Assembly (NCBI GenBank): GCA_015064895.1
Contig: SVRI01000007.1
Coordinates: 1 to 64,000, forward strand
Source of the DNA: Oscillospiraceae bacterium
GTDB lineage: Bacteria > Bacillota > Clostridia > Oscillospirales > CAG-382
DNA: 64,000 bases
Direction: 5' to 3'
Shown here: piece by piece, positions 7,238 to 35,800 of the stretch
Layout of the letters: each line of letters opens with the position of its first letter
Position numbering within the stretch: position 1 is the first letter of the stretch
Position numbers and translations under genes: made by a program
Notes under the pieces: generated by a model
Told to the model about the DNA's origin: nothing
What the model saw: the letters and a program-made list of their open reading frames with translations, nothing else
Database searches by the model: none

Positions 7238-7261
7238 GAACACAGAAACGGAGGATGCAGT

Positions 7262-32278: not shown

Positions 32279-32818
32279 ATGAAAAAATATTTGTTTTTTA
32301 TCTTAGCTATGATTATTCTTAGTCTTTGCTCATGCAAGAAAGAGCCCCAAGTTTCATCAGCTGCAAATATCCTTAACAAGCCTGTTGCAAATCAGGAACA
32401 GCAAGAGAAAGAAACACTCAGTGAAAATGTCATAAAACCCGATTTTGACAAGGCAGAACTTGATAAAAAATTCGGAACAGAAGAAATCTATATCGTAAAG
32501 ACCTACAAGGAAGATAACCATGAGGAATTTGAACACTTCCTTGACGAAAACATGATTTTTACTAAGGTCAGTCATTATCAGCTCAGCGACGGAAGCTGGA
32601 AAACAGATGACTACTCCTATAAATACAAGCTTGAAATTTCGGGAGTAATGAACAATGCTGCATGCGGCACAATCTATCACATTTTATCAAACAACGATGA
32701 CATAACCTTTGATATGGCATGGAAAGCTGCCGGCTACTCTAGCAATACTGAAGACTATTTCAAGCCCGAAGATGCAATTATCGTCGGTGTGGGAAAATTT
32801 GATATTGACAGCAATTAA
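32279..32818 (+). CDS. Small lipoprotein of unknown function
   Basis: The 179-residue protein has a lipoprotein signal peptide ending with the lipobox LCSC (cysteine near residue 20) and then a charged linker rich in Lys/Glu/Gln. The mature part has no motif I recognise; it contains several aromatic strands (YKEDNHEEFEHFLD, SDGSWKTDDYSYKYK). AAAGGAG precedes the ATG 13 nt after mutS2, so it may be the last gene of that operon. Its stop is 3 nt before the Rex-like site of the hydrogenase-maturation operon. Confidence 0.7.
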   Translation: MKKYLFFILAMIILSLCSCKKEPQVSSAANILNKPVANQEQQEKETLSENVIKPDFDKAELDKKFGTEEIYIVKTYKEDNHEEFEHFLDENMIFTKVSHYQLSDGSWKTDDYSYKYKLEISGVMNNAACGTIYHILSNNDDITFDMAWKAAGYSSNTEDYFKPEDAIIVGVGKFDIDSN

Positions 32819-32821
32819 ACT

Positions 32822-32839
32822 TTGTGATAAAATTATCAA
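32822..32839. promoter_or_regulatory. Candidate Rex operator upstream of the hydrogenase-maturation operon
   Basis: TTGTGATAAAATTATCAA matches the clostridial Rex consensus TTGTTAA-N4-TTAACAA at 11 of 14 fixed positions, and the TTGTGA-N6-TCACAA form at 10 of 12. A weak promoter (TTGTGA at 32822, AAGAAT at 32844) overlaps it. Consensus sequences are from memory. Confidence 0.5.
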
Positions 32840-32853
32840 TGTAAAGAATCCGA

Positions 32854-32967
32854 CCTGAAGAATTTTTCTGAAAGCAGGATGCAGTACATCAATCTAACAC
32901 ATTCCCCTTTTAGGTGAACTATGCTTACTTTGACTGCATTCTGTTTTAGGATGCAGTCATTTTTTTA
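32854..32967 (+). promoter_or_regulatory. Leader with mutually exclusive hairpins ending in a terminator (attenuator)
   Basis: Three elements are visible. A hairpin pairs CCTG (32854-32857) with CAGG (32875-32878). AGGATGCAGT at 32876-32885 can pair with ACTGCATTCT at 32933-32942 (antiterminator). GACTGCATTCT pairs with AGGATGCAGTC (32932-32958), followed by seven or more T (terminator). AGGATGCAGT thus occurs twice, 72 nt apart. The hydrogenase operon ATG follows at 32985 with AAGGAG at 32970. No T-box or known riboswitch consensus was recognised. Confidence 0.6.
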
Positions 32968-32984
32968 TTAAGGAGAAAATTGGA

Positions 32985-33248
32985 ATGGAAACGAGAGTTG
33001 CCGTTATGGGTATAATTGTATCCGAAACGGAATCGGTTGAAAAGCTGAATGCACTGCTTCATGAGTACGGTAAGTACATAATCGGCAGAATGGGTATTCC
33101 CTACCGTGAAAAGAATATAAGCGTTGTATCTGTTGCCATTGATGCACCGCAGGACGTAATTGCAGCACTGTCGGGAAAAATCGGAAAACTTGAAGGAATT
33201 ACAGTTAAAACCGCATATTCCAACGTAATAACAAATGAACAAAGTTAA
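32985..33248 (+). CDS. TM1266-family putative iron-only hydrogenase system regulator
   Basis: The 87-residue protein has an ACT/NikR-like ferredoxin fold. It starts METRVAVMGIIVSE and contains IIGRMGIPYREKNISVVSVAI and LSGKIGKLEGITVK, matching the small regulator found beside hydE/F/G genes. It lacks a DNA-binding helix-turn-helix, so 'regulator' is a family name rather than a demonstrated function. AAGGAG precedes it by 9 nt. It overlaps hydE by 14 nt, so they are co-translated. Confidence 0.8.
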   Translation: METRVAVMGIIVSETESVEKLNALLHEYGKYIIGRMGIPYREKNISVVSVAIDAPQDVIAALSGKIGKLEGITVKTAYSNVITNEQS

Positions 33249-34281
33249 AGATTTTATTGAAAAACTGAATAAAAACAAAAGTCTTTCACTTGATGAATAC
33301 AGATTCATTCTTGACAATTACACCGGTGAAGATGCCGAATTTGCAAAAAATCTCGCTGTAGACATAAGAAAATCCGTTTACGGAAACTCGGTATACATCC
33401 GTGGTCTTATTGAAGTATCAAACTACTGCAAAAACGGCTGTCTATACTGCGGAATTAACCGTGACAACAAATCGTGTTTACGGTACAGGCTGACAAAAGA
33501 AGAAATCCTTTCATGCTGTGAAAACGGATATAAGCTTGGTTTTCGCACCTTCGTATTACAGGGCGGTGAGGACAATCATTTTACGGATGAATTTGTATGT
33601 GACACGGTTCGTAAAATCAAGAAAAGATACCCGGACTGTGCCGTAACGCTTTCACTCGGCGAAAAAAGTTATGACAGCTACAAGGCTCTGTATGATGCCG
33701 GTGCCGACAGGTATCTTCTTCGTCACGAAACGGCAGACAGCGAGCATTATTCTAAGCTCCATCCAAGTGATTTAACCTTAGAGAACAGAATGGAGTGTCT
33801 TCACAATCTTAAAAAGATTGGTTTTCAGACAGGCTGCGGAATAATGGTGGGAAGTCCCTATCAGACAAACGAGCACATTGCAAAGGATTTAAAATTCATC
33901 GAAGAATTTGACCCGCAGATGTGCGGAATAGGTCCTTTTCTTCCCCACAAGGACACGGTTTTTGCAGACTTTGAAAAGGGTTCATTTGAGTTGACGCTGT
34001 TTTTACTGTCACTTATACGCATAATGAAGCCGTCTATTCTTTTGCCGTCAACTACAGCCCTCGGAACACTCAAAGACGGCGGCAGAGAAATGGGTATCTT
34101 AGCCGGAGCAAACGTAATTATGCCCAATCTTTCACCCGATACGGCTAAAGACAAATATATGCTCTATGACAACAAACTTCGAACAGGTCTTGAAAGTGTT
34201 GAAGGGCTTGAAAATCTGAAAAAGAAATTTGCGGATATCGGATATGAAATTGTAACCGACAGAGGGGATTATAAGAGTTAG
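33235..34281 (+). CDS. hydE: [FeFe]-hydrogenase H-cluster radical SAM maturase HydE
   Basis: The 348-residue radical SAM enzyme has the 4Fe-4S motif CKNGCLYCG near residue 65, within YIRGLIEVSNYCKNGC. It also has VLQGGEDNHF, RHETADSEHYSKLHP and GCGIMVGSPYQTNEHI, as in HydE. HydE processes an organometallic intermediate when the dithiomethylamine bridge of the H-cluster is made. Its last codons lie in a GAGTTAG heptamer repeat that provides the TAG stop. hydG follows after 70 nt. hydF is not in this window. Confidence 0.92.
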   Translation: MNKVKDFIEKLNKNKSLSLDEYRFILDNYTGEDAEFAKNLAVDIRKSVYGNSVYIRGLIEVSNYCKNGCLYCGINRDNKSCLRYRLTKEEILSCCENGYKLGFRTFVLQGGEDNHFTDEFVCDTVRKIKKRYPDCAVTLSLGEKSYDSYKALYDAGADRYLLRHETADSEHYSKLHPSDLTLENRMECLHNLKKIGFQTGCGIMVGSPYQTNEHIAKDLKFIEEFDPQMCGIGPFLPHKDTVFADFEKGSFELTLFLLSLIRIMKPSILLPSTTALGTLKDGGREMGILAGANVIMPNLSPDTAKDKYMLYDNKLRTGLESVEGLENLKKKFADIGYEIVTDRGDYKS

Positions 34282-34307
34282 GAGTTAGGAGTTAGGAGTT
34301 AGGAGTT
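34275..34307 (+). repeat. GAGTTAG heptamer tandem repeat, 4.7 copies
   Basis: Four perfect copies of GAGTTAG and a partial fifth (GAGTT) run from inside the hydE stop codon into the hydE-hydG gap. Each copy carries an AGGAG-like element. A slip of one unit would not change HydE because the stop is in the first copy. Confidence 0.9.
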
Positions 34308-34351
34308 TTTACTTTTAAATATACGAGTTACAGAAAGGACTGTTACAGATA

Positions 34352-35800
34352 ATGGCAAAATTTGATTTGAAATCACTTAAAGCTGAAGAATTTATCAACC
34401 ACGAGGAAATCCTCGAAACTCTTGAATATGCAGAAAACAACAAGCACAACAGAGAGCTTATTGAAGCAATTTTGGAAAAGGCAAAACCCAAGAAAGACGA
34501 AGCAGGTACTCACTCTGTAGGTCTTACACACAGAGAAGCTTCCGTTCTTCTTGCTTGTGACATTCCTGAGCTTAACGAAAAAATGTATGAGCTTGCCCGT
34601 CAGATAAAGCAGGATTTTTACGGCAACAGAATTGTAATGTTCGCGCCTTTATATCTTTCAAACTACTGTGTAAACGGCTGTACATACTGCCCTTACCACT
34701 ATCAGAACAAGCACATTTGCCGAAAGAAACTTACACAGGAAGAAGTTGAAAAGGAAGTAATTGCACTTCAGGACATGGGTCACAAGAGACTTGCCATTGA
34801 AGCGGGTGAAGACCCCGTAAACAACCCCATTGAATATATTTTGGAATGCATTGACACCATCTACAAGGTAAAGCACAAAAACGGTGCAATCAGAAGAGTT
34901 AATGTCAACATTGCGGCAACTACCGTTGAGAATTACAAAAAACTCAAAGATGCGGGAATCGGTACATACATTCTCTTCCAGGAAACATATCACAAGGAAA
35001 CCTATGAGACACTTCACCCCACAGGTCCAAAGCACAATTATGCTTACCACACCGAAGCCATGGACAGAGCCATGGAAGGCGGCATTGACGACGTAGGTCT
35101 CGGCGTACTCTTCGGACTTGAATTATACAAGTACGAATTTGCAGGTCTTATCATGCACGCAGAGCACCTTGAAGCTGTACACGGTGTAGGACCTCACACA
35201 ATAAGTGTTCCGAGATTAAAGAGAGCCGACGACATTGACCCCTCGAAGTTCGATAACGGCATTGACGACGAAACCTTCAAGAAGATTATCGCCTGCATAA
35301 GAATTGCTGTTCCATACACAGGTATGATTATTTCGACAAGAGAAAGTGCAAAAGTCAGAGGCGAAGCTTTACAGCTTGGAATTTCACAGATAAGCGGTGC
35401 TTCAAGAACCTCTGTCGGCGGATATGCAGAAGAAGAAAGACCGCACGACACAGAACAGTTTGATGTGTCGGATGAACGAACTCTTGACGAGGTTGTCCGC
35501 TGGCTTATGGAAATGGGTCATATTCCCTCTTTCTGTACGGCATGCTACCGTGAAGGCAGAACGGGCGATAGATTTATGAGTCTTTGCAAGACAGGTCAGA
35601 TTCTCAACTGCTGTCACCCCAACGCACTTATGACTCTTTCCGAATTCTTAGAGGACTATGCTTCACCCGAAACAAAGAAGCTCGGTTATGAAATGATTGA
35701 AAAAGAGCTTCTCAACATCCCCAAAGAAAAGGTAAGAGAAATTGCAAAGAGCAACATTGAAGCAATAAGAAACAACAACAAGAGAGACTTCAGGTTCTAG
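34352..35800 (+). CDS. hydG: [FeFe]-hydrogenase H-cluster radical SAM maturase HydG
   Basis: The 482-residue ThiH-like enzyme cleaves tyrosine to make the CO and CN ligands of the H-cluster. The SAM cluster motif is CVNGCTYCPYH near residue 108, and the C-terminal auxiliary cluster is carried by CTACYREGRTGDRFM near residue 397. ETYHKETYETLHPTGPKHNY and STRESAKVRGEALQLG also match HydG. AAAGGA lies 12 nt before the ATG. A strong bidirectional terminator follows. Confidence 0.94.
   Translation: MAKFDLKSLKAEEFINHEEILETLEYAENNKHNRELIEAILEKAKPKKDEAGTHSVGLTHREASVLLACDIPELNEKMYELARQIKQDFYGNRIVMFAPLYLSNYCVNGCTYCPYHYQNKHICRKKLTQEEVEKEVIALQDMGHKRLAIEAGEDPVNNPIEYILECIDTIYKVKHKNGAIRRVNVNIAATTVENYKKLKDAGIGTYILFQETYHKETYETLHPTGPKHNYAYHTEAMDRAMEGGIDDVGLGVLFGLELYKYEFAGLIMHAEHLEAVHGVGPHTISVPRLKRADDIDPSKFDNGIDDETFKKIIACIRIAVPYTGMIISTRESAKVRGEALQLGISQISGASRTSVGGYAEEERPHDTEQFDVSDERTLDEVVRWLMEMGHIPSFCTACYREGRTGDRFMSLCKTGQILNCCHPNALMTLSEFLEDYASPETKKLGYEMIEKELLNIPKEKVREIAKSNIEAIRNNNKRDFRF

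Follow-up and report, generated by a model that had tools for sequence, protein, structure and literature searches.

A conserved leader RNA that can probably switch off transcription of [FeFe]-hydrogenase maturation genes in Clostridia

Results

Organization of the locus

The window analyzed here, the whole 64,000-nucleotide stretch of DNA, contains a TM1266-hydE-hydG gene set preceded by a structured leader. These genes were identified by matches to TIGR03959, TIGR03956 and TIGR03955, all far above the cut-offs of these curated models, in agreement with an earlier interpretation of the DNA (the sequence-only reading) that had placed a leader on a hydrogenase maturation operon. That reading set the start of the element at 32854, which was too far downstream; a rod-shaped RNA element begins at 32848 and is itself preceded by a promoter. 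The features of the locus, all on the forward strand, are as follows.

32805-32833 (+): promoter, TTGACA, 17 nt, TAAAAT, with TG ahead of the -10 box (11 of 12 consensus matches, sigma-A)
near 32840 (+): expected transcription start, from the promoter position
32848-32880 (+): conserved RNA rod of 33 nt, the putative sensor and anti-antiterminator (covariance models R1 and R2, covariation)
32848-32851 with 32877-32880 (+): rod helix P1
around 32854-32856 with 32872-32874 (+): short central helix of the rod, between two internal loops
32859-32861 with 32867-32869 (+): rod helix P2
32876-32886 (+): antiterminator 5' strand, the first AGGATGCAGT copy, whose GGAU doubles as the P1 3' strand
32931-32959 (+): intrinsic terminator hairpin, 13 bp with a 3-nt loop, holding the second AGGATGCAGT copy at 32948-32957
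32933-32942 (+): terminator 5' arm, ACTGCATTCT, partner of the first AGGATGCAGT copy
32960-32966 (+): terminator T run, 7 T
32971-32976 (+): ribosome-binding site AAGGAG of the TM1266 gene, directly 3' of the terminator (from the sequence)
32985-33248 (+): TM1266 gene, putative [FeFe]-hydrogenase system regulator (TIGR03959, 117 bits; PF21699; 2NZC)
33235-34281 (+): hydE (TIGR03956, 556 bits)
34352-35800 (+): hydG (TIGR03955, 926 bits)

The TM1266 protein encoded here has 87 aa and no DNA-binding domain, and its predicted model (pLDDT 92) matches both the TM1266 crystal structure 2NZC and the C-domain of the nickel-sensing NikR (ACT-like fold). An open reading frame of 179 aa, resembling a small lipoprotein and with no Pfam match, was also observed just 5' of the leader (32279-32818).

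Alternative structures of the leader

The two copies of AGGATGCAGT were found where the sequence-only reading had reported them, 72 nt apart (32876-32885 and 32948-32957), and the downstream copy does form the 3' arm of the intrinsic terminator, which folded alone at -17.8 kcal/mol (z -5.6; none of 200 shuffles as good). The upstream copy can pair with the terminator 5' arm, giving a duplex of -14.6 kcal/mol. Two more exact copies of the 10-mer occur in the window, at 7252 and 44215, so its repetition by itself would prove little; it is the terminator, and the element's conservation among relatives, that exceed chance, rather than the 10-mer alone. A third small hairpin had been proposed to hide the upstream copy. 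This hairpin exists and is the conserved rod, which hides just the GGAU and not the whole copy.

Three mutually exclusive states had also been proposed, and they appeared in succession when minimum-energy folds were computed for growing 3' ends. The rod alone was obtained with 3' ends up to 32930, the antiterminator with 3' ends at 32945-32950 (-22 to -25 kcal/mol), and the terminator together with the rod at full length. The rod given by minimum-energy folding of the window is nearly the same as that of the conserved model.

Conservation and covariation in related leaders

Relatives of the leader were collected from 110 loci, nearly all encoding TM1266 relatives. A common pattern 5' of the TM1266 gene consisted of CCUGACAUAAAG, a hairpin and CUGAGUGAAAGGUGC, followed by a terminator with a 5' arm ending in GCACC, and dozens of other Clostridia showed the same arrangement of rod, antiterminator strand and terminator as the window. 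Strict regular expressions caught just 35 of 107 leaders, and a covariance model was adopted for this reason. The first model (R1), built from an alignment (A1) of 39 clean examples that did not include the window, scored 22.8 bits on the window leader, with E about 0.01. It also matched many further leaders, a tally that is not independent where TM1266 leaders are concerned, since R1 and its successor were trained mostly on these. The second model (R2) was built from 75 sequences with the window among them, and matched the window at 32842-32887 with 40 bits. An alignment of the most divergent leaders with MAFFT was too poor for a third model and was left out. The 60 TM1266 loci, drawn from about 50 families, gave 23 weak matches, of which 13 fell on the sense strand within the 4% of sequence just upstream of the TM1266 gene (P about 6e-13), and divergent or tandem forms of the rod were visible by eye in many more of these leaders. 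Two tandem rods within a single leader 5' of TM1266 were observed at three loci, one by the model (L188) and two by eye (L168, L176).

In the conserved rod, P1 is followed by an internal loop and a central helix of about 3 pairs; beyond a second internal loop, which is A-rich, P2 closes a hairpin that varies. P1 pairs CCU with AGG, and the internal loop adjoining it is of the G.A and A.A type. Each strand of the rod carries CUGA-NNN-AAAG, which makes it nearly twofold symmetric, and about 18 nearly invariant nucleotides lie within and around the two internal loops. We saw no junction or pseudoknot in the rod.

Covariation of the stems in orthologous leaders, on which the sequence-only reading had staked its claim beforehand, was present, with changes on both sides in 9 of 11 base pairs (75-82 leaders) and in 10 of 11 (94 leaders). 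The covariation score was 0.288 with 75 rows, compared to 0.138 (sd 0.010) for shuffled and 0.053-0.088 for slid controls, and 0.314 with 94 rows; over all alignments, which were fitted to the covariance model and so lean towards the structure, it ranged from 0.288 to 0.314 versus 0.14-0.15 shuffled and at most 0.10 slid. Compensatory changes were visible by eye as well, such as the change from U-A to C-G in P1 within the genus of the window. The rod has, then, the conserved domain with covarying helices that is expected of a riboswitch sensor. A single sequence could not have revealed the full size of the element or how well it is conserved.

Terminators similar to that of the window were observed in nearly all related leaders, and in nearly all of them the P1 3' strand and the bases that follow it fit the leader's own terminator, as with AAAGGUGC and GCACC, AAAGAUGC and GCAUC, AAAGGCGC and GCGCC, or AGGAUGCAG and CUGCAUU. 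When the antiterminator-terminator duplex was computed for 63 leaders, own pairs had a mean of -10.5 kcal/mol versus -7.8 kcal/mol for exchanged pairs, and none of 20,000 permutations was as good. Two features expected of an attenuator are in place, an intrinsic terminator ahead of the first gene and a mutually exclusive antiterminator kept in relatives. A good promoter was found in 66 of the 75 related leaders, and its -10 box mostly ends 8-14 nt 5' of the rod, which places the rod at the 5' end of the message.

Rod copies ahead of other genes

In relatives, including members of the genus of the window, the rod recurs between hydE and hydG, where it has no terminator and abuts or overlaps the ribosome-binding site. 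These copies played no part in the choice of the motif, nor did those ahead of hydE, aspA-hydF and the FecCD operon described below. The central helix of the hydG copies also shows compensatory changes to the eye, either UAGG facing CCUA or CGGG facing CCCG. In the window the hydE-hydG gap holds no recognizable rod, leaving the leader copy only; about five tandem GGAGTTA repeats (34276-34308) were observed where relatives have the second rod.

A scan of 392 genomes of the class with R2 gave 17 matches, a search that misses some true copies (the rod at L221 among them), so that absence there means little. Fifteen of the 17 matches precede H-cluster genes, namely TM1266, hydE alone, hydG, or aspA followed by hydF. 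The other two lie within unrelated genes. Matches of 27-29 bits inside other genes (L151/L159, L152/L160) were taken as chance, and so were the matches L123, L126, L128, L129 and L065:3110.

The arrangement rod, aspA, hydF was found in L153 (G491:C40) and L154 (G198:C1). In L153 genes for a FecCD/FecE/FecB-type transporter follow, suggesting a link between the uptake of metal or siderophores and the assembly of the H-cluster. The aspA gene belongs to many hyd operons, and AspA can supply ammonium as the nitrogen source for the bridging ligand of the H-cluster (PMC11736057). In the relative G005 the rod precedes FecCD, a fusion of an ABC ATPase with TM1266, HydE, nitrogenase-like genes and HydF. 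Operon-like clusters in L130 (G005:C60:1-13700) and L135 (G053:C19) encode such an ABC ATPase with a C-terminal TM1266 domain, recognized by Pfam in L130 and by a TIGR03959 match and alignment in L135, along with a HydE-like radical SAM protein, NifH-like and nitrogenase-component-like proteins and a periplasmic binding protein; the L130 cluster additionally has FecCD and HydF.

Discussion

An attenuator for H-cluster maturation genes

We put at roughly 85% the probability that the leader acts in cis as an RNA attenuator and shuts down the H-cluster maturation genes at times when they are not required, a value that applies to the attenuator and not to its effector. The parts of the leader, their conservation and covariation, the exclusive pairings, the position at the 5' end and the set of genes that follow were all computed here. 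Judged by comparison of sequences, the leader appears to be a genuine attenuator RNA, conserved and devoted to [FeFe]-hydrogenase maturation, whose family Rfam does not list and whose mechanism is well supported.

In the proposed mechanism RNA polymerase would start near 32840 and make the rod-shaped sensor RNA first. P1 and the antiterminator share a strand, from which we infer that a rod held together means termination; the effector that would hold it is putative. With the effector bound, the P1 3' strand (GGAU) would not be free, the antiterminator (32876-32886 with 32932-32942) would be absent, and the terminator at 32931-32959 would form and end transcription ahead of TM1266-hydE-hydG. 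With no effector the antiterminator would open P1 and block the terminator, and the operon would be read. In the hydG copies that lack a terminator, a rod held at the ribosome-binding site would instead block translation.

The leader remains unclassified, as had been claimed from the single sequence: no family of Rfam 15 scored over its cut-off there or in any of 40 related loci. Sub-threshold Rfam matches to Arrc14, freshwater-2, trpB and the L10 leader were far below cut-off and mostly over the terminator hairpin. We found no paper on this RNA or on RNA-level control of [FeFe]-hydrogenase maturation genes, in a search that did not extend to subscription literature, where a prior description is possible.

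Candidate effectors

The choice between a riboswitch and a protein-controlled attenuator, posed by the sequence-only reading, proved to be the right one. Its further suggestion of a signal related to SAM, tyrosine or iron-sulfur clusters drew no support from anything we found.

Attenuators of pyr operons controlled by PyrR (RF00515) consist of an anti-antiterminator, an antiterminator and a terminator, with the regulator gene first and the binding site repeated in the operon. The leader described here has the same order of elements, and in relatives the rod lies ahead of TM1266, the first gene, and is repeated within the operon, which supports the candidate protein as effector; the window has the leader copy only. 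The resemblance does not extend to the PyrR family itself. RF00515 was far under its cut-off (just 17.5 bits against 54 in a relative), and TM1266, the first gene, is not PyrR-like, its RNA binding being a candidate role. A second comparison is with the RAT antiterminators of the LicT/BglG family, hairpins with two internal loops and near-twofold symmetry, as in the rod. The protein that acts on RAT, which overlaps the terminator, promotes readthrough, whereas the rod overlaps the antiterminator and its stabilization should stop reading, and no LicT/BglG-family gene adjoins the rod.

The symmetry of the rod and its PyrR-like repetition slightly favor the candidate TM1266 protein over a metabolite. 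A NikR/ACT-type sensor fold with no DNA-binding domain also speaks for the protein. We commit weakly, at just under an even chance, to TM1266 as the effector, possibly with a bound H-cluster-related ligand and acting in the manner of PyrR. Tentatively, it may be an RNA-binding attenuation protein that clamps the near-symmetric rods of its own operon, of hydG and of aspA-hydF and so reports the state of H-cluster assembly. Against this, many TM1266-bearing genomes have no recognizable rod, and the fusion of a TM1266 domain to a transporter ABC ATPase is more simply read as ligand sensing without RNA. Rod and TM1266 co-occur in 16 of 17 genomes, but this is weak evidence, TM1266 being present in most genomes with hydG in any case; the idea that the two co-occur more often than expected proved uninformative once the presence of hydG was considered. 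A rod was found at one hydG locus (L221, in an incomplete MAG) among 29 genomes with hydG and no detected TM1266. Together with the rods missing from TM1266 operons, this means that presence data do not decide the effector.

Direct binding of a metabolite or metal by the RNA is quite possible, at somewhat less than an even chance. The rod would then be a true riboswitch for a small molecule or ion of H-cluster building, for example an Fe(CO)(CN) intermediate, a by-product of the pathway or iron itself, and TM1266 merely one of the regulated genes. The leader resembles riboswitches with transcription-terminating platforms in having a 5' leader, a conserved sensor, an antiterminator and a terminator, plus versions at ribosome-binding sites. 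The nearly invariant nucleotides in and around the internal loops are consistent with this reading, as are the transcriptional and translational outputs and the tandem copies of some leaders, found in many riboswitches, and a regulated set that includes transport and biosynthesis genes. However, an aptamer of this size with neither junction nor pseudoknot is unusual, and the symmetric rod would suit a protein dimer. None of Rfam's riboswitch families reaches its cut-off here. The molybdenum/tungsten cofactor riboswitch is likewise a leader of a cofactor pathway and has been reported before some hydrogenase genes (PMC9481103). It has a larger fold, whereas here there is a simple rod with no Rfam match.

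Some other effector is unlikely, and a protein regulator other than TM1266 rather improbable. Such a protein would account for the frequent absence of the rod in TM1266-bearing genomes and for the one rod-bearing genome with no detected TM1266, but no other gene was noticed travelling with the rod, as far as an unsystematic inspection goes. Still less probable is a constitutive, partly leaky terminator with no switch: the terminator of the window is strong, but a terminator alone would not preserve a rod with covarying pairs, a matching antiterminator strand or a set spacing from the promoter, and would not explain the hydG copies that have none. A DNA operator near the promoter, instead of an RNA element, is scarcely credible even though the rod begins within a short distance of the transcription start and its two halves are nearly symmetric, given that compensatory changes keep the RNA pairing, G-U pairs occur, the hairpin between the halves varies in length, the rod is coupled to a terminator and copies lie at ribosome-binding sites within the operon.

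As an attenuator, the leader offers a new, testable handle on the cellular control of [FeFe]-hydrogenase assembly, and its rod recurs in many gut and rumen Clostridia. Operons of hydE, hydG, aspA-hydF and TM1266 that have this RNA in common make up an H-cluster regulon; the shared rod gives TM1266 a possible function and provides a short RNA for a direct effector search. The signal sensed could be an organometallic precursor, iron or a protein, and in each case would be of interest for hydrogen metabolism in these gut and rumen organisms.

Two actinobacterial TM1266 loci (L086, L089) have no visible rod, and ahead of TM1266 there is a long inverted repeat of another kind, GAGTGACC...GGTCACTC, which is possibly another control element.
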